A stretch of 64,000 nucleotides of DNA from Micromonospora citrea (GTDB lineage: Bacteria; Actinomycetota; Actinomycetes; Mycobacteriales; Micromonosporaceae): NCBI RefSeq assembly GCF_900090315.1, contig NZ_FMHZ01000002.1, positions 3,876,501-3,940,500 of the forward strand. The letters are read 5' to 3'. Shown here in pieces: positions 9,361 to 36,666 of this stretch (within the stretch, counting starts at the first letter, position 1; each line of letters opens with the position of its first letter). The translations under genes were made by a program, and so were the position numbers. A model generated the notes under the pieces. The model had not been told where the DNA came from and searched no databases. It saw nothing but the letters and a program-made list of their open reading frames with translations.

Positions 9361-9377
9361 TCGACCCTCCTGACAGC

Positions 9378-9393
9378 GCTCGGTAACCCGAGC
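9378..9393. promoter_or_regulatory. Perfect inverted repeat in the eccC leader
   Basis: GCTCGG-TAAC-CCGAGC is a perfect 6-bp-arm palindrome with a 4-nt spacer, 18 bp upstream of the eccC GTG and just before its ribosome binding site. It lies in the 102-bp divergent eccC/eccD region. It could be an operator or a small leader hairpin; nothing in the sequence says which. Confidence 0.35.
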
Positions 9394-9462
9394 CTGGCTC
9401 ATGGTAGGTAAAGTCCTGTCGTCCGCGCAGCCACCAACCCCGCGCGATATGGAGATCAGTCG

Positions 9463-22276: not shown

Positions 22277-22894
22277 GTGGCCGCGCGCCTGATCAGCGGC
22301 AAGCTCACCGGTGGGCCCGTCGAGGAGACCGTGGACCTCGGGCGGATCGAGAAGGCGGTCCGCGAGATCCTCGTCGCCGTCGGGGAGGATCCCGACCGCG
22401 ACGGTCTCCAGCAGACCCCGGCCCGGGTGGCCCGCGCCTACGCCGAGCTCTTCGCCGGCCTGCGGGTCGACCCGGCCCAGGTGCTCAGCACCACCTTCGA
22501 GGCCAACCACCAGGAGTTGGTGCTCGTCCGCGACATCGACGTGATGAGCCTGTGCGAGCACCACCTGCTGCCGTTCCGGGGCAGCGCCCACATCGGCTAC
22601 ATCCCCGGGCCGGACGGCCGGATCACCGGCCTGTCCAAGCTGGCCCGGCTGGTCGAGGTCTTCGCCCGCCGACCCCAGGTCCAGGAGCGGCTCACCTCGC
22701 AGATCGCCGACCTGCTGATGGAGCGGCTCGCGCCGCGCGGCGTGGTGGTGGTGCTCGAGTGCGAGCACATGTGCATGGCGATGCGCGGCATCCAGAAGTC
22801 GGGTGCCCAGACGATCACCTCTGCCGTGCGGGGCACCCTCCAGAACGACGCCAAGTCGCGCGCCGAGGCGATGGCGCTGATCATCCCCCGCTGA
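22277..22894 (+). CDS. folE: GTP cyclohydrolase I
   Basis: At least 205 residues. Zinc-site residues are visible in [11 protein letters not shown] (Cys, His) and ECEHMCM (Cys), along with the GTP-binding [33 protein letters not shown] region. FolE makes 7,8-dihydroneopterin triphosphate from GTP, the first folate step. The GTG at 22277 is the first standard start; the open frame extends upstream to a CTG at 22184 overlapping the ftsH stop, and some relatives have a longer N terminus, so the true start could be upstream. The next folate gene, folP, is 12.9 kb away instead of adjacent. Confidence 0.9.
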
Positions 22895-22999: not shown

Positions 23000-23764
23000 T
23001 CAGCCGGCGAGCATCGCGAGCAGCAGGCCCGCGCTGGCCAGCACCGCCGGGACCAGGCACACCAGCGCGCCGAGCCGGGCCGTGCGGTCCACGCGGCCAC
23101 CCTCCGGCGGCGGAAAGAGCCGGCCGACGCCGAGCCAGCCCGCCGCGAACGCCACCGCCGGCATCGGCAGCCCGAGCAGCAGCGCCACCACGGTCGCCGC
23201 CCCGGAGCCGGTCGCCACGAACAGCGCCACCTGGACCAGCGGCACCAGCAGCGCCAGCGGCCCGTACACCAGCAGGTTGCGCGGGCGCGCCGGCCAGGCG
23301 GCCAGGCGGGGCAGGCCGCGCGCGGTCAGCGCGGCGTCGGCGGCGTCCGCGCGACCCCGGGCGGCGCGGAGCGCGGTCAGCACCGCGGCCGGCCCGCCCG
23401 CCATCGACCGGGCCGCCTCCGTCAGCTCCGGCGGCGTCGGGACCAGCGAGATCGGCGGTACGCCCCGCTCGCGCAGCCGGGTCTCCTGCGACGCCAGCCG
23501 GGCGCGGACGGCCGTCAGCTCCTCCCGGGCCGCCTGCACCGACCGGGCCTGCTCGCCGGCGGCGGTCGCCGCGTCCCGACGTACCCCGTCGAGCTGCCGG
23601 GCCGCGGCGAGGTACTCGGTCCACGCGGCGGCCACCGGATCCCCGCCAGCGACGGCGCCCGACGGCGTCGCGGTCCCGGGCCGGGTCGGCGCCGCCTCGG
23701 CGGCCGGACGCTGGCGTCCCGGGCCGGCCTGCACCGCCCTGCTCCGTGCCCCGCCGCGGGTCAT
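23000..23764 (-). CDS. Coiled-coil membrane protein coupled to the FtsK-like ATPase gene
   Basis: 254 residues, no family recognised. The N-terminal ~50 residues are Pro/Ala/Arg-rich; residues about 55-125 look like an alpha-helical coiled coil (QLDGVRRDAATAAGEQARSV..., RARLASQETRLRERG); three or four membrane helices follow (NLLVYGPLALLVPLVQVALF, VVALLLGLPMPAVAFAAG, LGALVCLVPAVLASAGLLLAM). The ATG overlaps the stop of the upstream EccC/FtsK-like gene by 4 bp, so the two are made together and probably act as a membrane anchor and its ATPase. A link to the neighbouring type IV-like operon is possible but only positional. Confidence 0.75.
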   Translation of the reverse strand: MTRGGARSRAVQAGPGRQRPAAEAAPTRPGTATPSGAVAGGDPVAAAWTEYLAAARQLDGVRRDAATAAGEQARSVQAAREELTAVRARLASQETRLRERGVPPISLVPTPPELTEAARSMAGGPAAVLTALRAARGRADAADAALTARGLPRLAAWPARPRNLLVYGPLALLVPLVQVALFVATGSGAATVVALLLGLPMPAVAFAAGWLGVGRLFPPPEGGRVDRTARLGALVCLVPAVLASAGLLLAMLAG

Positions 23765-26310
23765 GCCGGCTCTCCCTCGTCGGCGAAAGGAACCAGCACG
23801 ACACCCCGCTCGCCGGGCGAGTCCCAGAGCACCGCCCGGCCGGGCCGGGGCCGCCACTCGACCGGCCGGCCGAAGACCGACGCGAGCTGCGCGCCGGGCA
23901 GATCCACCACGGCCACCGCCGCGAGCTTGTCCACCTCACCGTCGGGCTCCAGCAGCGCCGCGAACGACGGCGCCGTGCGCCAGCGGCCGAGCAGGTGCCG
24001 GCCGGCGGCCGGGCCCTCGCGCAGCAGCGCGCGCAGCCGTTCCGGGGGCAACTGCTCCGGTGACGGCACGTCCAGGCCGAAGACCACCAGGTAGGCGGGA
24101 CCGGCGTCGTCCACGGCGGCGAGCAGGCCGGCGGCGTCCACCGTCTCGACCGGGTGCCGCCCGGCCAGCTCGGCGGCCAACGCGTCGACCAGCGGCCGGC
24201 AGTCGTCGTCCGGCGCGGCGAGCACGAAGCGGGCGCTCCCCGGCGGGTGGTGGGCGGCCGTGCTGCGCGCCGCAGTGGCCAGGAGCCGGGCCGCCTCCGG
24301 GCCGGGGCCGAGCACGGCCAGGTTGCGCCCCGGGGCCGGCCCCAGCGGCACCGCGACAGTGGTCCGGGGCACGTCCATCGCCCGGCCCAGCAGGGCGGCG
24401 GGACCGGGCGCCCGCCCGGCCAGCGCGGCCCGGTGCCGGGGGTCGTTGCGCAGCAGCGGACGGGCGTAGCCGGCGAAGACCACCGGCGGGACGGCCCCCT
24501 CCGGACGGGCCGACCAGAGCCGGTGCCGCAGCTCCGCCACGGTGTCCGGATGGTCCTGCGGGTCGGGGAAGCGCACCATCCGCTCGTGCCCCCGGATCGC
24601 GCCCCGGGGTCCGCCGAGCCCGCCCGCCGTGTTCACCACGGCACTGCCCACCGGCAGCCCGGCGGCCGAATCGTTCGTCGGCTCCAGCACCGCGCCCCCG
24701 CCGGGCAGCGCCACCCGCACCGGGAACTGCCCCAGCACCGAGTCGCGGTCCGTACGCGAACCCAACCCCAGGTCCCCCTCGCCGGCCAGCACCAGGTGCA
24801 CCCCGTACGCGCGCCCGGTGCGGGCCAGCGCGTCCAGCCGGGCGGCGACGTCCGCGGCGAGCCGGTCGCGCTCGGCGAACAGCAGCGGGAGATTGTCCAG
24901 CACGCAGACGATCCGGGGCATGGCCCGGTGCTGCCGCAGCTCGGCGAAGCGCTGCCCGCCCGCCCGGCTGCCGGCCTCCTCCCGGCGGCGCACCTCCGCC
25001 GTCAGTTCGTCGAGCAGGCTCAGCACGTACTCCCGGTCGGCCGCCAGCGCGGCGGCCCGGACCTGCGGGATCCACGAGCGGTCCCGCTCGGTCTGCAGGA
25101 ACTCCACGAAGGACTCGGCGTCGGCGAGGTCCACCAGGTAGAGGGCCAGCTCGTCGGGGCCGTACCGGGCCACCAGACCGAGCAGCGCCGTGGTGAGGAA
25201 CGTGGACCGGCCCGCACCGGAGCGGCCGCTCACCAGCCAGTGCGGCGTCAGCTCCGTGAACCCCAGCGACACCGGCCGCCCGCCCGCGTCGCCGACGGTG
25301 GTCGCGAGCCCGTCGACGGCGGTCGCCGCCCACAGCTCCTCGCCGGGCGGCGGCAGCAGATCGGTCAGGGCAAGCCGGGAACCCGCCTCCACCTGCGCGG
25401 CCAACCGGCGACAGACCGCGTCGACGAGCTCGGCCGGCGGATCCGCCTCGATGAAGACCGGGGAGTTCAGCCCGCCCGGAGGCTCGGCCCCGGGGCCCGC
25501 GAACGACCCGCCCGGCGGATCACCCAGCAGCGCGTACGCGTTGCGGATCGCCAGCGTCGTCGCCTGCGGCAGCGGCGCCCGGTCGGCGTACGGGCCCGCC
25601 GGGGGCCAGCCGGCCACCACGAGGTGCAGCCCGGCGGAGCGGCCGTGCTCGGCCAGCGCCTCGACCCGGGCCAGGTCGGTGGGGCCCGTCTGCTCCGGCA
25701 GCGCGGCGAACACCAGCAGCAGCGTCCGGTCGTGCCGGCGGCGCCCGCTCGCCCCCGGGGCCACCCACTGCTCCGCCTCGGTGAGCACGGCCCGCAGGCC
25801 CGCGACGTCCACCGCCGGGGGCGGCAGCAGACCCGCGTCCGCCAGCGCCGCGAACGGCGCCAGCGCCTCACCCGTGGCGTCCACCGCGCGCACCAGCAGC
25901 GCCCCGGCCGGGGTCGCCGCCAACACCCGCAGCAGTACGGCCCGGAGCAGCCCCGCCACCCGCGGATCCCGGGCGTCGACATCCACCGCGAGATGCCCGG
26001 TGCCGACAAGCGGCACCAACGCGGGGAAGCGCGCGTCGTCCAGCGGCGCCGCCGTGCCGAGCCGGACGAACGGGGGCGGCCCCTCGCCGGCCGGTGCGGT
26101 CGCGGCGACCGTCTCCAGGTCGGCGCCAGCCCAGCCCGGGGCGAGCACCGCCGCCGCCGACCGGAGCCGGTCGGCCAGCTCGTACTGCCGGTGCTGGTCG
26201 GCGGGGACGGGACGGGTGTCGTCGAGGATGCCGGCGGCCGCGGACGCGGTGGCGGCGGCCCGCCGGTGCAGGGCGGCGGCGCGGTTCGTACGTGCCTTCG
26301 GACCCGTCAC
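23761..26310 (-). CDS. EccC/FtsK-SpoIIIE-like ATPase with altered Walker A
   Basis: About 849 residues, soluble apart from possible short hydrophobic patches. An N-terminal helical region is followed by a Rossmann-like domain (about 70-260), an FtsK/SpoIIIE P-loop domain and a further degenerate P-loop domain. The Walker A at about 360 reads SGRSGAGRST: the invariant Lys is Arg. Walker B-like IVCVLDNLPLLF follows. The last domain (LAVLGPGPEAARLLATAA) has no P-loop Lys either. It resembles the paired ATPase domains of EccC, but without membrane helices. The GTG at 26310 is preferred to one at 26319 because GAGGGGG then lies at usable spacing. It is translationally coupled to the coiled-coil membrane protein. 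It could be a regulatory or coupling ATPase of weak activity. Confidence 0.8.
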   Translation of the reverse strand: MTGPKARTNRAAALHRRAAATASAAAGILDDTRPVPADQHRQYELADRLRSAAAVLAPGWAGADLETVAATAPAGEGPPPFVRLGTAAPLDDARFPALVPLVGTGHLAVDVDARDPRVAGLLRAVLLRVLAATPAGALLVRAVDATGEALAPFAALADAGLLPPPAVDVAGLRAVLTEAEQWVAPGASGRRRHDRTLLLVFAALPEQTGPTDLARVEALAEHGRSAGLHLVVAGWPPAGPYADRAPLPQATTLAIRNAYALLGDPPGGSFAGPGAEPPGGLNSPVFIEADPPAELVDAVCRRLAAQVEAGSRLALTDLLPPPGEELWAATAVDGLATTVGDAGGRPVSLGFTELTPHWLVSGRSGAGRSTFLTTALLGLVARYGPDELALYLVDLADAESFVEFLQTERDRSWIPQVRAAALAADREYVLSLLDELTAEVRRREEAGSRAGGQRFAELRQHRAMPRIVCVLDNLPLLFAERDRLAADVAARLDALARTGRAYGVHLVLAGEGDLGLGSRTDRDSVLGQFPVRVALPGGGAVLEPTNDSAAGLPVGSAVVNTAGGLGGPRGAIRGHERMVRFPDPQDHPDTVAELRHRLWSARPEGAVPPVVFAGYARPLLRNDPRHRAALAGRAPGPAALLGRAMDVPRTTVAVPLGPAPGRNLAVLGPGPEAARLLATAARSTAAHHPPGSARFVLAAPDDDCRPLVDALAAELAGRHPVETVDAAGLLAAVDDAGPAYLVVFGLDVPSPEQLPPERLRALLREGPAAGRHLLGRWRTAPSFAALLEPDGEVDKLAAVAVVDLPGAQLASVFGRPVEWRPRPGRAVLWDSPGERGVVLVPFADEGEPA

Positions 26311-26493
26311 CGCGTCCACCCCCTCTGTCCGAGGCTGGCAACCCCTCCCCGCGCAGAGACGGTAACCCAGTCGGAGCAGCTCGTCCGGGATGTGCGGCGG
26401 CGCTGCGCCGGTGTTGTCGTGGATCTCACCAATGGGGAGTGGTCCGTCACGATCCGCTGCATCTGGGGCATTGGGTCTCCGGGCCCCAGCCGC

Positions 26494-26499
26494 TAGCCT
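26494..26499 (+). promoter_or_regulatory. -10 hexamer for a leaderless membrane-protein gene
   Basis: TAGCCT ends 6 nt before the GTG at 26506. The 195-bp divergent region 26311-26505 separates this gene from the FtsK-like ATPase and holds no other clear signal. Confidence 0.55.
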
Positions 26500-26505
26500 C
26501 AGAGG

Positions 26506-27069
26506 GTGGAATCAGTGCAGCCCCCCGCCGGTTCCCAGGTCTCCCGCGTACCGGCGCAACGGCCCCCCTCCGACCACCTCGCGCCGCCCTCGGCGGTCCC
26601 GGCGCCGGAGCGGCCGAAGCGGCGCACGCGCACTGTCCTGACGGTCGTGGCGAGCGTCCTCGCCGCACTCGTCCTCGGCGGCGTCGCCGCCGGCTACGTC
26701 CTATACAACCGGGCCGCCGCACCCGATCGCAGTTCTCCTGACGTCGCCGTGGTCAGCTACCTGCAGGCCGCGCTCGTTTCGCGCGACCAGAATCGCGCGC
26801 TGCTCTACACATGCGACGGTCACCTTAGCGCGATCGACGAGCTGCGAGTTCAGATCGAACGGCGCGAGCAGGAACTGGGTTCCAGTTTCTCCGTCAACAT
26901 CGAACGTGTCGTCGTTTCCATGAACGGTTCATCGGCAGCCACCGTTACGGCAGTAATCCGCCGTACCGCTTCGATCGATGGGGTACAGCAGAGCCTTACC
27001 GACCCCTGGCGCTTCGAGGTGCAGGACAGGGATGGCTGGCGAGTCTGTTCCGGAGTGCAAGCAACCTGA
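26506..27069 (+). CDS. Single-pass membrane protein with external NTF2-like/DUF4878-like domain
   Basis: 187 residues. A Pro-rich cytosolic N terminus is followed by one membrane helix (VLTVVASVLAALVLGGVAAGYVLY, about 44-67) and an external domain of about 110 residues (VVSYLQAALVSRDQNRALLYTC ... WRFEVQDRDGWRVC) with two Cys that could pair. The pattern resembles small NTF2-like exported domains. Codons from about 26750 on use more A/T in third position than neighbours, a hint of different origin. The start is the GTG at 26506, 6 nt after TAGCCT. It is convergent with the 200-residue hypothetical gene, 9 bp apart. The function is unknown; a part in the adjacent secretion-like locus is possible. 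Confidence 0.75.
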   Translation: MESVQPPAGSQVSRVPAQRPPSDHLAPPSAVPAPERPKRRTRTVLTVVASVLAALVLGGVAAGYVLYNRAAAPDRSSPDVAVVSYLQAALVSRDQNRALLYTCDGHLSAIDELRVQIERREQELGSSFSVNIERVVVSMNGSSAATVTAVIRRTASIDGVQQSLTDPWRFEVQDRDGWRVCSGVQAT

Positions 27070-27078
27070 GCCCTGCGG

Positions 27079-27681
27079 TCACTCGACCCAGAGCAGGTGG
27101 ACCGGAATCTCCAGGGTGGTCGGTGACTGGCCCCGCCAGGCCCAGCGGTACCACTCCACCTCGGGCGTCACCCGCACGCAGATGTCGCCGTCGGCGCCCG
27201 AGTAGGTCTCGGTGACCGCCCGCAGGTCCCGGTGCTCGACCGACTCCGAGACGTGCACCACCCTGCGGCCCGTCACGGCGTCCGCCTCGAAGACGGGGGT
27301 CGGCGCGCGGTGCGCCGGGGCGTCCAGGGAGACGAGGCGGATGCCCGCCTCCCGGTCGACCGGCCCGTCCGGCCGGCGGGCACCCACCGTCTCCACCCAG
27401 ACCCGCTCGACCGGCACCAGCGGGGCGAAGACCTCCACCTGGTCGGACTCCGCCCGGTACCACTCGTGCTCGGGGATGACCGGCACGTAGGTGCGGCTGC
27501 CCTGCACCACCCGCTCGTCGGCCCGCAGGTCGCCGCGCCAGCCCAGCCCGGGCAGGCCGACCAGCACCCGCCTTCCGCGTAGCTCGACCCGGTCGGTGGC
27601 CGGCACGATCGCTATCGGCCGGGGTGGCCGGGGGGCCCAGTCGGGCTGGTCGGCGAACGGATCGGGAACCGGTTCGTTCAT
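27079..27681 (-). CDS. Conserved-looking hypothetical protein, 200 residues
   Basis: A soluble-looking, beta-rich protein without signal peptide or membrane helix. The N terminus is Pro/Asp-rich (MNEPVPDPFADQPDWAPRP). Two parallel segments each end in a Glu-Trp-Tyr-Arg motif (VIPEHEWYRAES; VTPEVEWYRWAW), suggesting an internal duplication of a ~90-residue unit. No family is recognised. It starts 13 bp after the stop of the VirB1-like gene on the same strand, so it is likely the last gene of the type IV-like operon. The ATG at 27681 is the first in-frame start with a weak GGGG upstream. Confidence 0.7.
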   Translation of the reverse strand: MNEPVPDPFADQPDWAPRPPRPIAIVPATDRVELRGRRVLVGLPGLGWRGDLRADERVVQGSRTYVPVIPEHEWYRAESDQVEVFAPLVPVERVWVETVGARRPDGPVDREAGIRLVSLDAPAHRAPTPVFEADAVTGRRVVHVSESVEHRDLRAVTETYSGADGDICVRVTPEVEWYRWAWRGQSPTTLEIPVHLLWVE

Positions 27682-27694
27682 GACCCCGAGCGTC

Positions 27695-28864
27695 TCATTC
27701 GGAGCCCTTGAGCGGGGCGCCCCGCGACCGCATGAACGGCACCGGGTCGATCGCGCCCCGGCTGCTGCGATCCTCGTCCTCGTGCACCTCGAAGTGCAGG
27801 TGCGGGCCGGACGAGTTGCCGCTGCTGCCCACCTCGCCGATGACCTCTCCGGCTTTGACGGTCTGGCCGACGGAGACCCGGGGCTTGCTCACCATGTGGC
27901 AGTAGCGGGTGATGAAACCGCCGGCGTGCAGGACGTCGACGAACCAGCCGCAGCCGCCCTTGTCGGGCCAGCCGTCGGCGTTGCAGCTGAGCCGTCCGCG
28001 ATTGTCGGGGTCGCAGCGGGCGACCAGGACGCGTCCGGTGGCCGCGACCCGGATCAGGGTGCCCTTCGGGGCGGCGATGTCGACCCCGTTGTGCCCAGGC
28101 CGGCTCGTCGTGCGGAAGCCCGACCCCACGCCGCCCGGTACGGGGGCCGTCCAACCCGAGGCGGCGATCTCACCGCCGGCGGCCCGGTCGCACGCCTGCT
28201 TCCCGGCGACCAGCACGGTCCGGGCCGCCCCGCCGGCCAGGGCGTTGACGATCTGCGAGGCGACTTCCTCGTGCTTGGCGTAGGCGTCCGGGAAGGCGCT
28301 GATCTGCACGGCCTGGGCCGCCCGCGTAAGGGGCCTCCGCTCCCAGCCGGGCACCTTGAGCAGCTTTTCGTAGAACTTCCGGGCCGCGTACTCGGGCGTC
28401 ATGCGCTGCGCGACGGTGCCCCAGCTCGCCCGCTGTTGGAAGAGGCCGACGGAGTCGTGATCGGCTCCGACGCCCTCGTTGGGCAGGTCCCCCGACTCGG
28501 CGACGGTCCGGTTTGCAAGGTTGAGGAGACGGGACTCCTGCATCGCGGTCGCCACGGCGATCACCCAGCCGCGCGGCGGCACCTTCATCTCCTGCCCCAC
28601 CTTGATGATCCGGGCGGCGTTGCGGAGTTGGCGCTCACCGTACTGGGACATTCGGGGCATGCTGCCCCGAATGTCGACCCGGAAGTCCTCCGTGCAGTCC
28701 AGGCTCGTCGACGTCACCCGCTCGTCGGCGTCGCCGCCCAACTCCGTCAGGAAGAAGGCGCCGGCGCCGCCGGTGCAGCACAACAGGGCGAACGTCGCGG
28801 TCAGCGCGGCGGCCAGCGCGCCGAGCCGGAGCTGTCGAGGGCGGGGTCGGGTCTCGTCGTTCAC
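27695..28864 (-). CDS. VirB1-like two-domain peptidoglycan hydrolase (transglycosylase-like plus M23)
   Basis: 389 residues. After one N-terminal membrane helix (LAAALTATFALLCCTGGAGAFF) comes a lysozyme-like/transglycosylase-like domain (about 70-205) with a likely catalytic Glu in ATAMQESRL and GLFQQRASWG. The C-terminal domain (about 245-380) is an M23/LytM endopeptidase with HNGVDIAAPKGT and the metal-binding HLHFEV; two extra Cys pairs are present. Such dual hydrolases (as in TcpG/CwlT/Orf14 of Gram-positive conjugation systems) open the wall for a secretion channel. The GTG at 28864 overlaps the previous stop by 4 bp and is preferred to an upstream GTG. The call as a VirB1 analogue rests on domains plus operon context. 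Confidence 0.85.
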   Translation of the reverse strand: MNDETRPRPRQLRLGALAAALTATFALLCCTGGAGAFFLTELGGDADERVTSTSLDCTEDFRVDIRGSMPRMSQYGERQLRNAARIIKVGQEMKVPPRGWVIAVATAMQESRLLNLANRTVAESGDLPNEGVGADHDSVGLFQQRASWGTVAQRMTPEYAARKFYEKLLKVPGWERRPLTRAAQAVQISAFPDAYAKHEEVASQIVNALAGGAARTVLVAGKQACDRAAGGEIAASGWTAPVPGGVGSGFRTTSRPGHNGVDIAAPKGTLIRVAATGRVLVARCDPDNRGRLSCNADGWPDKGGCGWFVDVLHAGGFITRYCHMVSKPRVSVGQTVKAGEVIGEVGSSGNSSGPHLHFEVHEDEDRSSRGAIDPVPFMRSRGAPLKGSE

Positions 28865-29418
28865 TGCTGCTCCCAGTCCACCGCGTCCACCAGCCACCGC
28901 CCGTCGGGCGCCACCAGTTCGAGGCGGAGCCGTCCCGTGTCGAGCGGGACCAGCACCTCGACGAAGTTCTCGGTCCGGGGTTGGAGCGTCGCCTCACCGG
29001 CCACCCGCGAGGCCGGCACTCCCGACGGGTCGGCGCCCGCCAACTTCTCGGTCAGCGCCGGGGTCGACAGCGGACGCAACCCCTCCTGCCACTGGTCCGC
29101 CGTGACACCCGGCCTGCCCAGCCACGCGGCGACGAAGCGCTCGGCGGTCTCCTGTGGGGTGGGTTCGCCCGGACGGGTGACCGGGGACGGGGGAGCGCCC
29201 GTCGAGAAGGCCCCGTCGTCACCGGCGGTCGGGGCGACGGTGGTGATGGGACGGCTCGGACGGTTGCTGAGGCCGTCCGTGGGGTCACCGGGGCCGGAGA
29301 CCAGCCGGGCTGCCCCGATGACCCCGAACACCACGACGGCGAGGCCGAGCGCGATGCCCAGCCGGGACCGGAGCACCCGGGTAACGAGGAATTCGACCGC
29401 CCGACGCACCGCACTCAC
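28861..29418 (-). CDS. VirB8/TcpC-like single-pass membrane protein
   Basis: 185 residues. One membrane helix near the N terminus (LGIALGLAVVVFGVIGAARL, about 19-38) is followed by a Pro/Thr-rich linker and a ~110-residue external domain beginning TPQETAERFVAAWLGRPGVTADQWQEGL and ending LVAPDGRWLVDAVDWEQQ. That layout is typical of NTF2-like VirB8/TcpC scaffold proteins of Gram-positive type IV systems. It shares 4-bp overlaps with both neighbours (GTGA at each end). Assignment is by topology and context; no residue-level signature proves it. Confidence 0.7.
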   Translation of the reverse strand: MSAVRRAVEFLVTRVLRSRLGIALGLAVVVFGVIGAARLVSGPGDPTDGLSNRPSRPITTVAPTAGDDGAFSTGAPPSPVTRPGEPTPQETAERFVAAWLGRPGVTADQWQEGLRPLSTPALTEKLAGADPSGVPASRVAGEATLQPRTENFVEVLVPLDTGRLRLELVAPDGRWLVDAVDWEQQ

Positions 29419-31352
29419 CGTGCCTCGGAGCGGATCCGCGGAGCGGGCCGTTCCGGCTCACGCTCGGCGGAGCCCGGACGGTAGATGACGAACGACGGGT
29501 TCTCGTCGGGCACGTCCGGCTCCGTCCAGGTGGCCGACTGTCGGCGGCGAGGGCGAGGCGCGACGGGACGCGAGGTCTCCCGCTCCGCGGTCTCCGGAGC
29601 GTCAGCGGCCTGCTCGCGGCCGTCGGGTCGCTGCCGTTCCTGGCCGTCGCCGGTGGGGGCGTGCGAGGGATCCTCCCGCCGGGCCTCGGGCCGCAGGGTG
29701 CTCCTCTCCGCCACGACCGCACGGCGCCGGCCCATCGCCGGCTCGGCCGTGCCGCCGGGTTCCGCGACGTCGAGCCGGGCGGCGGTGCGCATGTCCCGGA
29801 AGAAGCGCCGGTGCCACGAGCCGGCCGAGCTGACGGCCTCGCTGCTGTCCTTGCCGCCGAGTTGGGTGATCCGCCGGTAGGGGCGCAGGAGCAGCCAGCC
29901 GACCACGCCGCAGAGCCAGACCAGCACCACCTGGAGCCAGCCGGGAAGCGTCGGCGTGCTCATGATCAGGTCGACCGCGAAGAGGTAGATGGCGGCGCCC
30001 GTGCCGAAGATGGCGATGTTGAACACGGCGGCGACCACCGCGTTCCCCAGCCGGCGCAGCCCCGCGCTGGCCGGCCGCAGCAGGCCCACGGTGCCGAGGA
30101 TCGGCGCGGCGATCACCGCCCAGCGGAAGATCAGGAAGCCCAGCAGCACCAACAGCGAGGCGGTCAGGTCGAACATCGCGAAGAGCACGGCGGCGAGCAC
30201 CGCGATGAACCCGGCTCCGACCCGGTCCATGTCCCGGACACCCTGGAGGTACTCGTACGCCTCCGGATCCTCCTCCTTGATCTGCTCCGCAACCTTCATC
30301 CATTGCTGCTGCTTCGCCTCGATCGTGGTCTGACGCGTCGCCGGATTCGCGCGAATCGACTGTATTTCCCCCCACGTCAGCGATCGTGCGTCGTACAGCG
30401 CCGGACCGTACTTCTTCGCGGTCTCACTGTCGGCTGATCCCAGAATTCCTCGAAGCCAATTCCGGTACAGCATCGACTCAGTGGCGGTATCGCTGGCCCG
30501 GACGGCGGGGGGACGCTTGTCCTCGCAGCGACTGGGGTCGGGATCGATGCACCGACCCGGCGCAGGCTCCTTTGCCTGCGGACCGACGGCGTCGTGCACC
30601 ACGCCGAGTGTCGTGACGAGGGTGCCGTCGGCGATGTTCGCCGACTTGACCGGCCACGCGGCCAGGGCGGTCACCGCCACCATCACCAGCAGCGCCCAGC
30701 CCGCCGTGGTCATCGCGTTGCTCATGTCCGACTGGCGGGATCGCCATAGCAGGTAGAGACCGACCACGCAGAGCGTGACGATGCCGAAGACGCTGAACAC
30801 CTTCTGGTAGACAGCCTTGGTCGCCTGGTCCACCAGCGGGTCCGCCCAGCCCCACATCGACCGTGGATCCCATGCGCGCTCCCGCAGTGCATTCGACGCA
30901 CCGATGACTGCAGTAGCCACCATGAATTCGCCGTTGGCGACAGTGGTGGTGAACTTGTAGTCCGGATGCAGCACTGTTGACGCGCAGCCGATGTCGTAGG
31001 TGGTGTAGCTGTAGCCGGCGTATCCGTAGAGGCTGTATCGGCCGGTGACGCCGCCGGACGCGGACTGCGGTGGTGAGCTGGCGAACCACCCTGCCAGACC
31101 TGCGTCAGGTGCGCCGGGTGTCGGCGGTTCAAGGCATTCCGCCCGTGCTGCCGACACGTCCTTGAGCTTGGCGACGCAGGCGCGGAAGTCGGCCTGCCAC
31201 TCCTGCGTCGTGCAGAGGTCGGCTGCCGCCCGGGTCGTCAGCGGCGCCGCTGAGGCCGGCGCCGCGCCGAGGGCCGGCCAGCCGATCGTGGCCCCGGCGA
31301 GTACGCCGAGCGTGAGCAGGAACGCCGCCAGCCGTGCCCGGGCCCGCGCCAT
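29415..31352 (-). CDS. VirB6/TrbL-like polytopic membrane protein
   Basis: 645 residues. There is a signal peptide (LAAFLLTLGVLAGATIGWPALGAAPASA), then a Cys-containing external domain and about seven or eight membrane helices between residues 195 and 510 (for example VFGIVTLCVVGLYLLW, TTAGWALLVMVAVTALAAW, FIAVLAAVLFAMFDLTASLLVLLGFLIF). A charged C-terminal tail of ~120 residues is rich in Arg/Glu/Pro. Large polytopic proteins of this kind form the VirB6 channel in type IV systems. The ATG at 31352 is 1 bp after the VirB4 stop and has GGAGG upstream. Between about 30350 and 31000 the codons contain clearly more A/T than the neighbours, a sign of foreign origin. Confidence 0.8.
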   Translation of the reverse strand: MARARARLAAFLLTLGVLAGATIGWPALGAAPASAAPLTTRAAADLCTTQEWQADFRACVAKLKDVSAARAECLEPPTPGAPDAGLAGWFASSPPQSASGGVTGRYSLYGYAGYSYTTYDIGCASTVLHPDYKFTTTVANGEFMVATAVIGASNALRERAWDPRSMWGWADPLVDQATKAVYQKVFSVFGIVTLCVVGLYLLWRSRQSDMSNAMTTAGWALLVMVAVTALAAWPVKSANIADGTLVTTLGVVHDAVGPQAKEPAPGRCIDPDPSRCEDKRPPAVRASDTATESMLYRNWLRGILGSADSETAKKYGPALYDARSLTWGEIQSIRANPATRQTTIEAKQQQWMKVAEQIKEEDPEAYEYLQGVRDMDRVGAGFIAVLAAVLFAMFDLTASLLVLLGFLIFRWAVIAAPILGTVGLLRPASAGLRRLGNAVVAAVFNIAIFGTGAAIYLFAVDLIMSTPTLPGWLQVVLVWLCGVVGWLLLRPYRRITQLGGKDSSEAVSSAGSWHRRFFRDMRTAARLDVAEPGGTAEPAMGRRRAVVAERSTLRPEARREDPSHAPTGDGQERQRPDGREQAADAPETAERETSRPVAPRPRRRQSATWTEPDVPDENPSFVIYRPGSAEREPERPAPRIRSEAR

Positions 31353-31353
31353 G

Positions 31354-34300
31354 TCACGCCTCCAGGTCCGGCAGGAGGGCCGGCAGCACCCCGGCGGCCG
31401 CGGCGATCGCGGCGGGGGTGGTGTCGAGGTGCTCCAGAAGCCCGTCGACGTACGAGACGTCGACCCTGACCTTCTGCACCCGACCGTCGACGTCCCGCAT
31501 GACGAACTCGCGGAAGCCGAGCCGGGCGGCCGACGTCGCGTCCGCCGCCGACAGCGAGGCGAGGGTGGCCTCGTAGCCGTCGTTGACCGGGACCCGCAGC
31601 AGCCGCAGGGCCTCGGAGGCGATCTCGGCATCCTCGGCGATCCGGCCGACGAAGACCGTGGAGACCAGGTTCTGCACGTCGAGACCGAGGATGTCGCGCG
31701 GGTTCTGCGAGGCCACCAGCGCGGCGAGGTTCCACTTGCGGGAGTCGCGGGCGAGCCGGACCAGGAAGGATCGCCCGGAGCGCCAGCCCTCCATGAAGTG
31801 CGCCTCGTCCAGGCCGACGAGTTTGCGGGACGACATCGACCCGCCGTAGCAGCGGCGTACGGCCAGCCGGTGCGCGGTGTGCAGCATCGGCAGGGCGAGC
31901 GCCTCCTCGGCCGACCAGTACTCCCGCTCGATCTTCAGGTCGGGCAGCCGCAGCCCGGCCATGGTGATCACGGTGAGGGCCGCGTCCGCACCGAGCAGCC
32001 CTTCGGGCGGCCGGCCGAAGAAGAGCATCGCCAGCGGCATCTCGGCGGTGTCCAGCAGGAGGTTGGCCAGTTCCTTGCCGGCGTCGTCGTCGAGCTGGCT
32101 GAGGCAGGCGACCACGTCGTCCAGGGTGGAGGTCTCCTCCGCCGGCACCTGGCGTACGGCGTGCCGGAACAGGGTGGCGGTGGAGGCCTCGCGGGCCACC
32201 TGCGGCGGCACCAGCATCATGCAGATGTCCTGCACGAGCATTCGCCGCTCGGCGCGGGCGTTGGAGACGGCGATCTCGAACTCCCGGTCGCCCGCCGCCC
32301 CGCTGCCGAACTCGCTGCGCAGCGGCGTCGGGATCAGCGAGTACGGGGCCAGGGTGCCGTGCTCGGAGCCGGTCAGGTTCAGCACCCGCGCGTACGGCCG
32401 CAGCTCGGGCATGGCGCAGAGCCGGGCGAGCGGGCCGGACGGGTCGAGCAGTGTCACCTGGACACCGCGCCGGGCTGCCAGGTAGCCGAGGGCGCCGAGC
32501 AGGGTGGACTTGCCGCCGCCCGGTTCGGCGACGAAGACGGCGAGCCCGGAGCGTTCGCGTACTTCCATGGGGAAGTGCAGGTCGAGGAAGACCGGGCGGC
32601 GGCAGGTGCCCGCGGTGCGCCCGATCAGGTCGCCGCGCCGGTCGCCGACGGTGGAGGCCGCCTGCGGGAGCGCGGCGGCGAGCAGGTTGACCGGCATCCG
32701 CCGGACGTAGCCGGTGTTGGCGATCGGCTCCCCCGGGATGAACTCGCGGGCCAGCCAGTCCTGGTTCTTCGGGTGTTGCAGCGAGATGCGCAGCTCGCGG
32801 GAGTAGAGCTGGATGAGCCGCCGGGCTCGCTCCAGGCACTCCTCGCGGGTCCGGCCGCCGACGGCGATGCGGTGCCAGCCGTGCGCCCGGGCGGAGTCCA
32901 CCGGCAGGCCGGTGGTCATCTCGTCGCCGATCACCAGGGCCCGCTTGGCCAGCCGCTCCAGCTCCGGCGGTGCGTCGATGCCGTGCTCGGCGTAGTCGAG
33001 CTGCTGGGAGCGGATCATCCGCAGCCGGTGCTCCAGGTTCCGGAAGGAGTCGCCGGAGCCGAGGATGTCGACCCGGGTCGAGATCTCCATCGGCCAGGGC
33101 AGCCGCTCGTGGAAGTGCAGCCAGGGCTCGTGCCGTTCGGGGATCTCCAGCGGTTCCATCCGGCCCACCGCCAGCACGGCGACGTGCCGCTCCTCGCCGG
33201 TCATCCGGTTGACCAGCTTGACCGTCGAGCCGTACGGGGTGCGGTAGCGCTCGACCTGCTCGGTGAGTGCGAGCAGGTCGCCGCGTTCCCACCGCCCGTC
33301 GGTGATCGGGGAGAGCCGGCCGGGCGGCGCCATGCAGAGCGCCACCGAGCGGTAGAGCAGCCACTCCAGCTCCTGCGCGGTGACCCGCCGCCCGCGCATG
33401 CCGAACGCCCCGAGCACCTCGTCGAACTGCTCGACGGTGCGCCCGAGCTTGCGGCGCTCGCCCTCGGCCACGCCGCGGCCGAAGGTGCGCAGCAGCCGCT
33501 CGGTCAGCGAGTCGCCGAGGGACCGGCGGGCGAACGTGACACCGAGGTAGGTCTGCCCCTCGGCGTGGTTGACCGAGAGCAGGTGCCGCTGCGCGGCCAC
33601 CAGGTGATCGGCCCAGCCGGCGGTGCCCGGGACGTCGGGCAGCGGGGCGGGGGTGTGCGCGTCGATGGTGCGGGCCCACTCGTCGGCCGGGAAGGGCCGG
33701 GTGGTGCGCCGCAGGTGCAGCCGGAAGCCGGCCAGGCCGGCGTACTGCTCCGAGATCGCCGAGAGCAACGCCTCCCGTTCCGCGTCCGGCCGGAACGCCC
33801 AGCGCACCTCCGGGAGCCAGTACCAGGCGGTGACGGTGTTGGGGGTGAAGGTCAGGTGGCCCGCGATCTCGGTGATGGCCAGCTCGACCGACGGGTCGCG
33901 GTCGCCGAACTTGATCTTCGGTGGCTTGACCCGGACCGGCTTGGCCGGCTGGTTGCGCCGGCCGGCGGAGCGCTGCCGCGGCGGCGCCACCTCCCGGTCG
34001 GCGCGCTCCGGCAGCCGCTCGCCGGCCCGCCGGGACGGCTGTTCCGCCGGCGCCGGGGCGAGCGGCGCGGACGGGGGCGGCGCCGGTGGGGGCGGCGCGG
34101 CGGCCGTCTCCTCCGCCTGTGGGCGGAGCGTCGGCAGCCGGTCGCCGGCCTGCTGCGGCACCCGCGCCGATCGCGCCGGCGGCTCGTAGGCGACGGCGGG
34201 CGGCTCGTGCGCGAGGGTCGGCGGCTCGTACGGTCCGGTCGGCGGCTCGTACGCCTCCGACGGCGGCGGCTCGACGGCGGGCGCCCGGTCGACCGGGCCG

Positions 34301-34686
34301 GCGGGACGGCGGGCGGGCGGCGCGTCGGCGGGGCCCGACGGGGCCGGCTGCTGCGGGATGGCCCGCTGCTCCCGCCCGGCGATCCGCTGCGGCGTGGCCG
34401 GCCGGGTCGCGCCGGGTCGGGTGCCACCGAACAGGTCGAGGAAGGGCGAGTCGATGTCGGCGCTGTCCGTGGGCGGGGCGGGGTCGGCCGGTGGCGTGCG
34501 CCGTTGCGCCGGGCGGGGCGCCTGGAAGACCCCGACCCCACCGTGCCCGGGGGCGGTCACCAGGGCCGGGTCGAGGACGACCTCGTCCCGCTCCGGCTCG
34601 TCCGCGTAGTCGAACGAACGCGCACGGTTACCGTTCGGGGCGGCCGAACGCCCGGCCGGGGAGCCCGGCGTGGAAGAGCGACTCAT
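31354..34686 (-). CDS. VirB4-type secretion ATPase with long disordered N terminus
   Basis: 1110 residues. The first ~260 are disordered and Pro-rich, with four tandem-like repeats of (Y/H)EPP(T/A) between about 145 and 175. A VirB4/TraC-like region follows, with the ATPase core: Walker A FVAEPGGGKSTLLG at about 720 and Walker B LVGLDEAHFMEG at about 955, then the Gln motif LVASQNPRDIL. VirB4 ATPases energise substrate transfer and pilin extraction in type IV systems. The start GTG/ATG at 34686 is the first of the frame. It lies between the PrgI-like and VirB6-like genes, the usual order. No relaxase is present nearby. Confidence 0.9.
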   Translation of the reverse strand: MSRSSTPGSPAGRSAAPNGNRARSFDYADEPERDEVVLDPALVTAPGHGGVGVFQAPRPAQRRTPPADPAPPTDSADIDSPFLDLFGGTRPGATRPATPQRIAGREQRAIPQQPAPSGPADAPPARRPAGPVDRAPAVEPPPSEAYEPPTGPYEPPTLAHEPPAVAYEPPARSARVPQQAGDRLPTLRPQAEETAAAPPPPAPPPSAPLAPAPAEQPSRRAGERLPERADREVAPPRQRSAGRRNQPAKPVRVKPPKIKFGDRDPSVELAITEIAGHLTFTPNTVTAWYWLPEVRWAFRPDAEREALLSAISEQYAGLAGFRLHLRRTTRPFPADEWARTIDAHTPAPLPDVPGTAGWADHLVAAQRHLLSVNHAEGQTYLGVTFARRSLGDSLTERLLRTFGRGVAEGERRKLGRTVEQFDEVLGAFGMRGRRVTAQELEWLLYRSVALCMAPPGRLSPITDGRWERGDLLALTEQVERYRTPYGSTVKLVNRMTGEERHVAVLAVGRMEPLEIPERHEPWLHFHERLPWPMEISTRVDILGSGDSFRNLEHRLRMIRSQQLDYAEHGIDAPPELERLAKRALVIGDEMTTGLPVDSARAHGWHRIAVGGRTREECLERARRLIQLYSRELRISLQHPKNQDWLAREFIPGEPIANTGYVRRMPVNLLAAALPQAASTVGDRRGDLIGRTAGTCRRPVFLDLHFPMEVRERSGLAVFVAEPGGGKSTLLGALGYLAARRGVQVTLLDPSGPLARLCAMPELRPYARVLNLTGSEHGTLAPYSLIPTPLRSEFGSGAAGDREFEIAVSNARAERRMLVQDICMMLVPPQVAREASTATLFRHAVRQVPAEETSTLDDVVACLSQLDDDAGKELANLLLDTAEMPLAMLFFGRPPEGLLGADAALTVITMAGLRLPDLKIEREYWSAEEALALPMLHTAHRLAVRRCYGGSMSSRKLVGLDEAHFMEGWRSGRSFLVRLARDSRKWNLAALVASQNPRDILGLDVQNLVSTVFVGRIAEDAEIASEALRLLRVPVNDGYEATLASLSAADATSAARLGFREFVMRDVDGRVQKVRVDVSYVDGLLEHLDTTPAAIAAAAGVLPALLPDLEA

Positions 34687-34735
34687 GCGACCGCCTCACC
34701 CGCGTCGTTCGACTGCCTGATCGGCGTACGCCCGG

Positions 34736-35098
34736 TCATGCCAGTTCCTCCCGGATCCTGATCCGGCTGCCGACCAGGCGGGGATCCCGCTGCTCGGCGG
34801 CCGGCTCCCGGGTGCGTCGCCAGTCGGTCAGCGCGGTGCGGATCACCATGCGCGCCGGCCGGTCCGGATCGACGTACCGGAAGATGAACGAGGTGGTCAC
34901 GATGGCGAGCGCGATCTCCCAGGCGGGGAAGAGCTCGACCTGGAACGTGAACAGCCAGTGGATGAACATGTAGAGGGGGACGAGCAGCATGAACAGCCCG
35001 TACTGGGCGTAGGGCAGGTGGACCGGAAGGGTGTAGCCGGGCGGCCCGAGGTAGACCAGGCGGGCCCGGTAGATGTCGTCGTCGGTGCGCAGCCGCAT
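34736..35098 (-). CDS. PrgI/VirB3-like small membrane protein
   Basis: 120 residues. Two adjacent membrane helices (YGLFMLLVPLYMFIHWLFTF and ELFPAWEIALAIVTTSFIFR) lie in the middle, flanked by charged ends (MRLRTDDDIYRARLVYLG; RTREPAAEQRDPRLVGSRIRIREEL). Size, topology and position just before VirB4 match PrgI/VirB3 family members of Gram-positive type IV systems. The 49 bp to the VirB4 start and 13 bp from the pilin-like gene indicate one transcript. Confidence 0.7.
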   Translation of the reverse strand: MRLRTDDDIYRARLVYLGPPGYTLPVHLPYAQYGLFMLLVPLYMFIHWLFTFQVELFPAWEIALAIVTTSFIFRYVDPDRPARMVIRTALTDWRRTREPAAEQRDPRLVGSRIRIREELA

Positions 35099-35111
35099 CT
35101 CGTGCCCGCGC

Positions 35112-35426
35112 CTATTCGAAGATCAGGTCGATCAGGTAGTCGCCGATGAAGAAGAGCGTGGCGGCTCCGGCGATGAAGGCGAGCCCGACGATCGCGATGG
35201 CCGAGCTGGTCAGCACCTTGGAGATCTCGCCCCGGCTGGCCCGGCCGATGAAGATGACGCCCAGCACGGCCAGCAGGATCGGGGCGATCTTGCTGGCGAA
35301 GAACGTGACGACGCCCTCGGTGTCGATGCCCTTCGGCGCCGGCTCGGCGAGTGGAGTCGACGCCAGGGTGGAGAGCGTGTGGGCGGCGGCAGACGTCACC
35401 GTCTCCATCAGCTCGATGGCGATCAC
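35112..35426 (-). CDS. VirB2-like pilin/small two-helix membrane protein
   Basis: 104 residues. An N-terminal ~45-residue segment ends in Pro-rich EPAPKGIDTEG, then two hydrophobic helices (FFASKIAPILLAVLGVIFIG and SSAIAIVGLAFIAGAATLFF) are joined by a short polar loop (RASRGEISK). This is the VirB2/TrbC layout. It is the first gene of the minus-strand operon. The GTG at 35426 has GGGGAGG 5 nt upstream, one of the best ribosome sites in the locus. Assignment is by topology and operon position. Confidence 0.65.
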   Translation of the reverse strand: MIAIELMETVTSAAAHTLSTLASTPLAEPAPKGIDTEGVVTFFASKIAPILLAVLGVIFIGRASRGEISKVLTSSAIAIVGLAFIAGAATLFFIGDYLIDLIFE

Positions 35427-35769
35427 TGGAACCTCCCCAAGTCGCGGCCGGCGGTGCCGCGGTGGTGCAGTAGGTGTGCCTTGCGGGAACGATGGTCACC
35501 GGGCGTAGCGTCGGCGACCCTGCGTTCGTTACTCACCACGGAGGGTGGTGAGCTTTGGGCGGATTTTCCCGCTTCGGCCCTCCCTCCGGGCTTCGCCATC
35601 TCGATGCCGGGCAATTCCAAAGCGTACGGGCACCCACTCTTTGCGACAAGCCGCGAAGAGTCTGCCCGATCCGGCCCGGACGCCCGATCGTACACCCGTT
35701 CGAATGCGCATGTCACCGCCCTCGACCCGGCCCGCCCGGGGCGCTCCGGCCGACCGGTACCGTCTAGTC
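35427..35769. other. 343-bp divergent region between the type IV-like operon and folP
   Basis: No gene is seen. A perfect stem, CTCACCAC (35532-35539) and GTGGTGAG (35545-35552) with a 5-nt loop, lies about 110 bp upstream of the pilin-like gene and could be an operator or attenuator. At the folP end TACCGT lies 6 nt before the GTG. The local base composition (stretches such as TTTGGGCGGATTTTCC) is less GC-rich than the flanks. Confidence 0.5.
35758..35763 (+). promoter_or_regulatory. -10 hexamer for leaderless folP
   Basis: TACCGT ends 6 nt before the GTG at 35770 (intervening CTAGTC), so transcription should begin at the start codon. This fixes the start of folP against longer upstream reading. 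Confidence 0.6.
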
Positions 35770-36666
35770 GTGACCGATCTGGTACGGGCCGCGGCCCCGG
35801 TGGTGATGGGCGTCCTCAACGTCACGCCCGACTCCTTCTCCGACGGCGGACGGTACGCCGACCTCGACGCCGCCGTCGGACACGGCGTGCGCCTGCTGGC
35901 CGAGGGCGCGCACCTCGTGGACGTCGGGGGCGAGTCCACCCGGCCGGGTTCCGACCGGGTCGACGCGGAGACCGAGACGGCCCGGGTGCTGCCGGTCGTG
36001 CGGGAGCTGGCCGCCGCCGGGGTGCCGGTCAGCGTCGACACCACCCGCGCGCGGGTCGCCGAGGCGGCCCTCGCCGTCGGCGCGGGCGTGGTCAACGACG
36101 TCTCCGGTGGCCTCGCCGACCCTGACATGGCCCGGGTGGTCCGGGACGCCGGCTGCCCCTGGGTGCTCATGCACTGGCGCGGCCACGCCCGCGAGATGGG
36201 CGAGCTGGCCCGCTACGGCGACGTGGTCGCCGACGTCCGCGCCGAGCTGGGCCGGCGCGTCGACGACGCGCTGCGGGCCGGCGTCGCCGCCGACCGGATC
36301 GTCATCGACCCGGGGCTCGGCTTCGCCAAGACGGCCGCGCACAACTGGGAGCTGAGCGCCCGCCTGCCCGAGCTGCTGGACCTCGGTTTCCCGCTGCTCT
36401 TCGCGTCCAGCCGCAAGGCCTACCTGGGCCGGTTGCTGGCGGGGCCCGACGGCGACCCCCGGCCGACGGACGGCCGGGACGTGGCCACCGTCGCCACCAG
36501 CCTGCTCGCGGTGGCGGCCGGCGCCTGGGGCGTCCGCGTGCACGACGTCCGCGCCACCGTCGACGCCCTCGCCGTCTGGCGGGCCACCGGCGCGCCCCGC
36601 CTGGCGTACGCGAGCACCGGCGCGGCCCCGGCGGACCGCGCCGTCGACGACGGAGGAGACCGATGA
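35770..36666 (+). CDS. folP: Dihydropteroate synthase
   Basis: 298 residues with a TIM-barrel DHPS signature: VMGVLNVTPDSFSDGGRY at the N terminus, HLVDVGGESTRPG, and the C-terminal SSRKAYLG. It joins p-aminobenzoate to 6-hydroxymethyl-dihydropterin diphosphate and is the sulfonamide target. The GTG at 35770 is chosen for its TACCGT hexamer at leaderless spacing; an in-frame ATG at 35704 would add a Pro/Arg-rich segment without homology. The stop overlaps folB (ATGA). Its own promoter explains how the fol genes keep working although separated from folE. Confidence 0.93.
   Translation: MTDLVRAAAPVVMGVLNVTPDSFSDGGRYADLDAAVGHGVRLLAEGAHLVDVGGESTRPGSDRVDAETETARVLPVVRELAAAGVPVSVDTTRARVAEAALAVGAGVVNDVSGGLADPDMARVVRDAGCPWVLMHWRGHAREMGELARYGDVVADVRAELGRRVDDALRAGVAADRIVIDPGLGFAKTAAHNWELSARLPELLDLGFPLLFASSRKAYLGRLLAGPDGDPRPTDGRDVATVATSLLAVAAGAWGVRVHDVRATVDALAVWRATGAPRLAYASTGAAPADRAVDDGGDR

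Follow-up and report, generated by a model that had tools for sequence, protein, structure and literature searches.

We analyzed a 64 kb stretch of the Micromonospora citrea chromosome (the window), in which seven open reading frames (ORFs) on the minus strand form an operon between folE and folP (35426-27079) that resembles a small type IV secretion system (T4SS). We propose, with a probability of roughly 0.6, that the operon encodes the channel of a conjugation system without relaxase and that it has become a fixed part of the chromosome, where it serves a native and probably developmental function at the cell envelope. That it is a domesticated VirB-type channel is, taken by itself, very likely. 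The relatives keep the motor ATPase nearly unchanged, which suggests that the cell has adopted the channel for purposes of its own. An earlier note on this DNA had suggested a domesticated apparatus fixed in the chromosome; the conservation of the VirB4 core and a scan of window genes that found no mobility gene support that part, and what the note missed is that the module is a widespread actinomycete unit, which also occurs on plasmids and, at another housekeeping site, in Pseudonocardiales genomes.

The operon and its products

All seven ORFs are open and are separated by gaps of 1-49 bases or joined by short overlaps, in agreement with the closely spaced minus-strand genes described in the earlier note:

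35112..35426, minus strand, VirB2-like two-helix protein of 104 residues (candidate, from position, topology and conservation)
34736..35098, minus strand, VirB3/PrgI-like protein of 120 residues (candidate, from position, topology and conservation)
31354..34686, minus strand, VirB4 ATPase of 1110 residues (sequence families and a PDB profile match)
29415..31352, minus strand, VirB6-like polytopic protein of 645 residues (predicted fold; start refined from 31631)
28861..29418, minus strand, VirB8/TcpC-like single-pass protein of 185 residues (predicted fold)
27695..28897, minus strand, wall hydrolase with an N-terminal hydrophobic helix, a muramidase/transglycosylase-like domain and an M23 peptidase domain
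27079..27681, minus strand, soluble protein of 200 residues, the last gene of the operon (no family match in Pfam, NCBIfam and PHROGs scans)

A sigma-70-like promoter match lies upstream of the first gene (35716-35687, minus strand) and is the sole match in 26300-35900, where 0.2 are expected; no terminator-like sites were found in the same interval.

VirB4 matches Pfam AAA_10 (1.4e-23) and NCBIfam TcpF (8.5e-20), and its Walker motifs are intact, as previously noted (Walker A AEPGGGKS at residue 720, Walker B DEAH at residue 960). The single sequence had no match in the PDB at 0.01; a profile built from five VirB4s matched the solved VirB4 structure 4ag5 at 5.5e-7. The VirB6 sequence gave a weak match to NCBIfam CD3337/EF1877 (E 0.03) and none in the PDB. 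The predicted folds of VirB6 and VirB8 (AlphaFold models searched with Foldseek, top matches PrgL, TraM and R388 TrwI) bear out the polytopic VirB6-like and single-pass VirB8/TcpC-like proteins that had been read from the sequence.

The hydrolase was likewise correctly described as combining transglycosylase-like and M23 domains. Its M23 domain is found by Pfam (9.9e-25), its second domain matches PDB entries named Muramidase (8b2e, 7.2e-20) and SH3b domain-containing protein (8b2h, 8.7e-21), and the motifs HNGVD, HLHFE and ESR are present. A GTG at 28864 is another possible start and would overlap with the stop codon upstream. The last gene product has no hydrophobic helix and, as the earlier note had it, no recognized family.

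The VirB2 and VirB3/PrgI candidates each have two hydrophobic helices. Homologues of the VirB3 candidate lie on all four plasmids compared by BLAST (E 4e-12 to 7e-6; see below) and, collinear, in 80 of 80 other loci; the candidate has a conserved LGP motif. On pRHL3 (E 1e-4) and NEAU-S7GS2 (E 0.002), a homologue of the VirB2 candidate occupies the corresponding position; the other two of the four plasmids gave none. Because of these homologues (VirB3 in all 80 loci, VirB2 on two of four plasmids), both are more than chance ORFs.

The operon has the VirB4, VirB6, VirB8 and VirB1-like wall hydrolase of Gram-positive T4SSs (mating-pair formation types FA and FATA). It shares VirB4, VirB6, VirB8 and a membrane-anchored hydrolase with the conjugative systems of pCF10, pIP501, pCW3 and Tn916; unlike in these, no VirD4, relaxase or mobility genes were found alongside. 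The VirB apparatuses Ptl, Brucella VirB, ComB and Bartonella Trw also work without VirD4, according to sections of PMC12857230, although these belong to Gram-negative hosts and include outer-membrane parts. We also considered the hybrid type VII/type IV systems of pRAW and Mycobacterium avium linear plasmids, which sections of PMC12803027 describe as carrying VirB4 and VirB8 inside an ESX cluster; in the window, the EccC gene (5410-9963) and a subtilase gene (3828-5345) lie at least 17 kb away from the operon.

We infer that the products assemble into a channel driven by VirB4. VirB4 would be the motor, VirB6 and VirB3/PrgI would sit in the membrane with VirB8 above it, the VirB2-like protein would be a small subunit, and the two-domain hydrolase would open the wall.

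Relatives on chromosomes and plasmids

Among the best 120 of 851 VirB4 matches, which include the window's own protein and belong to Micromonospora or Verrucosispora where named, the core (residues 257 on) has a minimum identity of 96.5% and a median of 97.1%. The first 256 residues (34686-33919, minus strand) are proline-rich and variable, with a median identity of 48.7% in the same 120. In other genera of Micromonosporaceae the ATPase part is 69-93% identical among the best 120 of 553 matches of a length-limited search: Phytohabitans 93%, Rugosimonospora 88%, Luedemannella 86%, Dactylosporangium 85% and 69-72%, Actinocatenispora 81% and Krasilnikovia 80%. VirB8 identity drops to 68% within the best 120 of 260 matches. 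As the VirB4 and VirB8 match lists hold the best rows only, they are evidence of presence and not of absence. VirB4 had no match in viral contigs.

With tblastn, VirB4 relatives were found on 297 plasmid records, all below 60% identity; the first eight, from Streptomyces, Nonomuraea and Pseudonocardia, are 34-37% identical. We compared ten of 40 listed records, plus SLP2. By their labels, L171 and L172 are circular and the other eight plasmids linear. The order VirB2-VirB3-VirB4-VirB6-VirB8-hydrolase recurs on plasmids of Streptomyces (NEAU-S7GS2), Nonomuraea (NBC_00507), Pseudonocardia (DSM 110487 p1), Rhodococcus (pRHL3) and others, as established by BLAST for four of them and read from gene annotation and placement for the remaining six (VirB8 was unassigned in L167, and L002 has no clear VirB2 homologue). 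For the four BLAST-compared plasmids, VirB4 is 32-37% identical; VirB3, VirB4, VirB6 and the hydrolase match in all four, VirB8 in all but pRHL3, and VirB2 on two of the plasmids. The hydrolases are annotated as NlpC/P60 or C40 in seven of the ten and as metalloendopeptidase in three (Rhodococcus), whereas that of the window is of the M23 type.

The plasmid modules differ from the window's operon in being plasmid-borne and in having an FtsK/SpoIIIE-type or type IV coupling protein (T4CP)-type gene within the stretch in nine of ten cases. Seven of these pumps are annotated as FtsK/SpoIIIE; that of L168 is annotated as type IV DNA transfer, and the hypothetical protein of L169 is 75% identical to it, both being weak relatives of the other seven. 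Under PLSDB typing, eight of the ten plasmids are non-mobilizable (no typed relaxase), and pRHL3 and pR8L1 are MOBP.

Scanning 84,980 species genomes, we obtained 471 relatives and kept the 80 most similar to a Pseudonocardia plasmid query (77 Pseudonocardiales loci and three unplaced). Gene order and strand agree with the window in all 80. The window's VirB3, VirB4 and VirB6 match in every locus, the hydrolase in 76 and VirB8 in 69. The Pseudonocardiales module (L091-L166 type) is collinear with the window's, lies among housekeeping genes, mostly lacks a detected plasmid-type pump, and has a VirB4 38-40% identical; it differs in its site (beside NIF3/RNaseH and RNB/panB instead of folE/folP), in its last gene and, in Kutzneria L120, in an NlpC/P60 hydrolase. 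None of the 80 loci had a match to folE, folP or ftsH. Using six flank genes from L120 named by Pfam (NIF3, CT398, RNaseH/CobC, RNB, an F420-type gene and panB), we found at least one in 70 loci, spanning 18 named genera, and flank genes on both sides in 48. The ten loci without them are four plasmid-like ones of Pseudonocardia (L087-L090), two apparent second copies in Kibdelosporangium (L097, L109), one in Lentzea (L125) and three short contigs (L101, L141, L165). A plasmid-type FtsK was detected in two of the 80 (L090 and L125), the stretches being 6-23 kb long.

The 200-residue protein had a homologue in none of the 80 loci. In 70 of them (68 of the 70 flanked loci, plus L101 and L125) its place directly after the hydrolase is occupied by a gene without an assigned family, which we call gene X (16396-17022 in L120). 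Gene X is unrelated to the 200-residue protein in a direct comparison, and tblastn of gene X against the window gave weak matches elsewhere only (E 0.006 and worse).

Two cases stand out from this pattern. Kibdelosporangium aridum (L109, L162) has two copies of the module in one genome; the first lies at the usual housekeeping site, and the second lacks those flanks. The Lentzea locus L125 (5241-6314) has gene X and a nearby plasmid-type FtsK and lacks the usual flanks; it is perhaps a mobile copy or an intermediate.

In a VirB4 tree of 57 rows, built with a quick method, the Micromonospora protein joins the Streptomyces and Nonomuraea plasmids with a support of 82, at a join flagged as long-branched. 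The Pseudonocardiales copies, including L097, L109 and L125, form their own group (support 100), and the Pseudonocardia-plasmid and Rhodococcus-plasmid types stand apart. A single clade of Micromonospora and the 36 Pseudonocardiales rows (including the same three) was not rejected by the approximately unbiased test (p-AU 0.458). The operon may derive from the transfer module found on relaxase-less actinomycete plasmids, or the two may have a common ancestor. On the plasmids the FtsK-type ATPase would pump DNA; the chromosomal version, which has neither mobility genes nor a plasmid-type pump alongside, would be kept by selection for a host function.

Genomic surroundings of the operon

Five genes next to the operon bear on its limits and its possible partners:

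22277..22894, plus strand, folE, left boundary (named by reading the translation)
23000..23857, minus strand, protein of 285 residues with three C-terminal hydrophobic helices, adjoining the FtsK-like gene (Pfam scan, hydrophobicity)
23761..26319, minus strand, FtsK/SpoIIIE-domain (EccC-like) protein with a degenerate Walker A, GRSGAGRS (lysine to arginine)
26506..27069, plus strand, Rv0361-like single-pass membrane protein (NCBIfam NF051431, 1.4e-8, just under the cut-off)
35770..36666, plus strand, folP, right boundary (Pterin_bind, 1.3e-82)

The end of folE (22894) and the start of folP (about 35770) are 12.9 kb apart, the distance given in the earlier note. Our evidence for a position between folE and folP comes from this window alone. 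The note's span of 26506-35426 needs two corrections: its first 564 bases (26506-27069) are the Rv0361-like gene, which lies on the opposite strand and is probably not part of the operon, and the FtsK-like gene lies just beyond it. This gene sits between the FtsK-like gene and the operon and has a low GC content at third codon positions (GC3) of 0.76. A profile comparison showed no relation to VirB8, so it is not a second copy of that subunit.

The FtsK-like gene, 0.8 kb past the end of the operon, possibly forms a two-gene unit of its own with the 285-residue gene. As a coupling protein of the plasmid type it is ruled out, its best E value against nine plasmid pumps being 8e-4, and tblastn found no match to it in any of the 80 loci. 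The best window match of the nine pumps is the type VII ATPase gene EccC (E 2e-5), which has EccCa and EccCb domains and is followed on the minus strand by the subtilase gene, as part of a type VII secretion locus.

The remaining window genes are housekeeping ones. They include a pyrophosphatase, an S13 peptidase, tilS, a phosphoribosyltransferase and ftsH (the last, like folE, by reading); beyond the operon folP is followed by folB and folK (by reading), and farther on by a glycine-betaine-type ATP-binding cassette transporter, a type III pantothenate kinase, a class II tRNA synthetase and a Clp ATPase.

Neither an integrase nor a relaxase was among the 43 window ORFs scanned with Pfam, which include overlapping alternatives (some window genes were scanned with NCBIfam only or not at all). 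No VirD4-type coupling protein was among the window genes scanned with Pfam and NCBIfam, and no tRNA was found in the window. The earlier note's statement that no relaxase, VirD4 or integrase is visible thus stands for the genes scanned. We also considered a conjugative element (an integrative and conjugative element, its actinomycete form, or a plasmid); within the window, we found no relaxase or TraB/FtsK pump combined with an integrase and an attachment site or tRNA.

AT-richer patches had been read as a sign of foreign origin, which we cannot confirm. The GC3 of the seven operon genes is 0.87-0.96, similar to the 0.95-0.97 of the ftsH and fol neighbours, so neither a recent foreign origin nor a foreign AT-rich insertion is supported, only the plus-strand gene being low. 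Six families of short imperfect direct repeats were found. One, of 27 bases and 81% identity, occurs at 27081 and again at 35002, close to the two ends of the operon; we take it as chance, because the copies lie inside coding genes and further weaker copies occur elsewhere.

Function and competing explanations

The cluster cmdABCDEF (SCO4126-4131) of Streptomyces coelicolor is, according to sections of PMC2782261, related to the genes that SLP2 uses for transfer. Like the window's operon, it is chromosomal, encodes a VirB4-like ATPase and membrane proteins, and is kin to a plasmid transfer cluster. Expression of its cmdB gene rises at sporulation. Those sections report that deletion of cmdB or of cmdABCDEF caused aberrant branching and 8% and 6% anucleate spores (0.1% otherwise), that deletion of the whole cluster led to early actII-orf4 transcription, and that deletion of cmdA alone had no visible effect on sporulation. 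By analogy with cmdABCDEF, we infer a role in hyphal or spore development; given a domesticated channel, a developmental envelope role is the somewhat favoured option. Since the neighbourhood lacks a plasmid-type DNA pump, a protein or wall/envelope role is slightly favoured over DNA transfer.

Several observations weigh against our interpretation. The VirB2 and VirB3/PrgI candidates have no match in Pfam, NCBIfam, PHROGs or the PDB, and neither do their plasmid and Kutzneria homologues in the family databases; for these two proteins, position, two-helix topology and conservation fit the earlier assignment. We compared cmd through SLP2 (L003) as a proxy for the SCO sequences: the SLP2 ATPase core is related to the window's VirB4 (hhalign probability 94.6, E 7e-8), but its 420-residue membrane protein does not match VirB6 (probability 0.5) and the gene order differs, so that cmd is a functional precedent and not an orthologue. 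The VirB4 core identity is biased upward, because it comes from the best 120 of 851 matches with the window's own protein included. The absence of a relaxase and a pump covers the scanned window genes only, the rest of the genome not having been searched. The adjoining FtsK-domain protein could possibly be a coupling partner, despite a degenerate Walker A and a place outside the plasmid pump family. Finally, the non-detection of a pump is weak for some of the 80 loci, since at least four are plasmid-like and several are short contigs.

An unlikely alternative is secretion of one or a few dedicated proteins without VirD4, as by Ptl or Brucella VirB, with the last gene (the 200-residue protein or gene X) possibly serving as adaptor or substrate. 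Sections of PMC12857230 describe VirD4-less T4SSs that include protein exporters, and each chromosomal lineage has its own gene directly after the hydrolase; however, no effector-like gene was recognized in or near the operon among the genes scanned, and the last gene product has no known domain. Somewhat less probable is a resident DNA-transfer apparatus that would carry chromosomal DNA from one hypha or cell to another and draw on a pump supplied in trans, for example by the FtsK/EccC-like neighbour or another FtsK; TraB-type DNA pumps of Streptomyces are described in the same sections. The plasmid relatives usually adjoin an FtsK/T4CP-type gene, and an FtsK-domain gene lies close by. Nor is the lack of a relaxase a bar, as most of the compared plasmids have none typed, and SLP2, typed likewise, transfers with its own gene cluster, which it needs according to earlier work cited in PMC2782261. 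The neighbour's arginine in place of the Walker A lysine, its distance from the plasmid pumps and its lack of a tblastn match in the 80 loci argue against such a pump. So does the report in that paper's sections that deletion of the whole cmd cluster did not significantly change transfer of an SLP2-derived plasmid (data not shown there).

A ComB-like DNA-uptake machine, in which VirB4 would work a pseudopilus, is very unlikely: Helicobacter ComB is a VirB2-4/6-10 set that takes up DNA without VirD4 (sections of PMC12857230), but the case is by analogy alone and no competence gene was recognized among the window genes scanned. The least probable explanation is a recently inserted, undomesticated conjugative element or its remnant. 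The homology to plasmid transfer modules and the 27-base repeat would fit an insertion; the VirB4 core conservation, the presence in other Micromonosporaceae genera, the host-like GC3, the open state of all genes and the lack of an integrase, relaxase or tRNA in what was scanned do not.

The preferred reading of a domesticated channel can be extended, tentatively and at somewhat less than even odds, to both groups of chromosomal loci. Two filamentous actinomycete orders would each carry a near-core T4SS channel, free of relaxase and pump, at different housekeeping loci and with its own last gene, recruited into mycelial cell biology either once with relocation or twice independently; cmdABCDEF would be a third case from another branch. 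We found no description of the operon in the literature searched, and no paper combining VirB4, Micromonospora, Pseudonocardia and type IV secretion system. Excerpts of the literature pairing VirB4 with Amycolatopsis do not describe it, and an excerpt of the M. lupini genome paper mentions one virB4 gene in a set of genes without known function.

If our reading is correct, a channel derived from conjugation is retained for a task other than conjugation by large groups of antibiotic producers, which may depend on it, and lists of mobile elements based on VirB4 may count resident, non-mobile loci. The operon would also offer a small T4SS of seven genes and a single membrane for structural work. 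The function of cmd-like operons in mycelial development, long open, would become testable in several genera.

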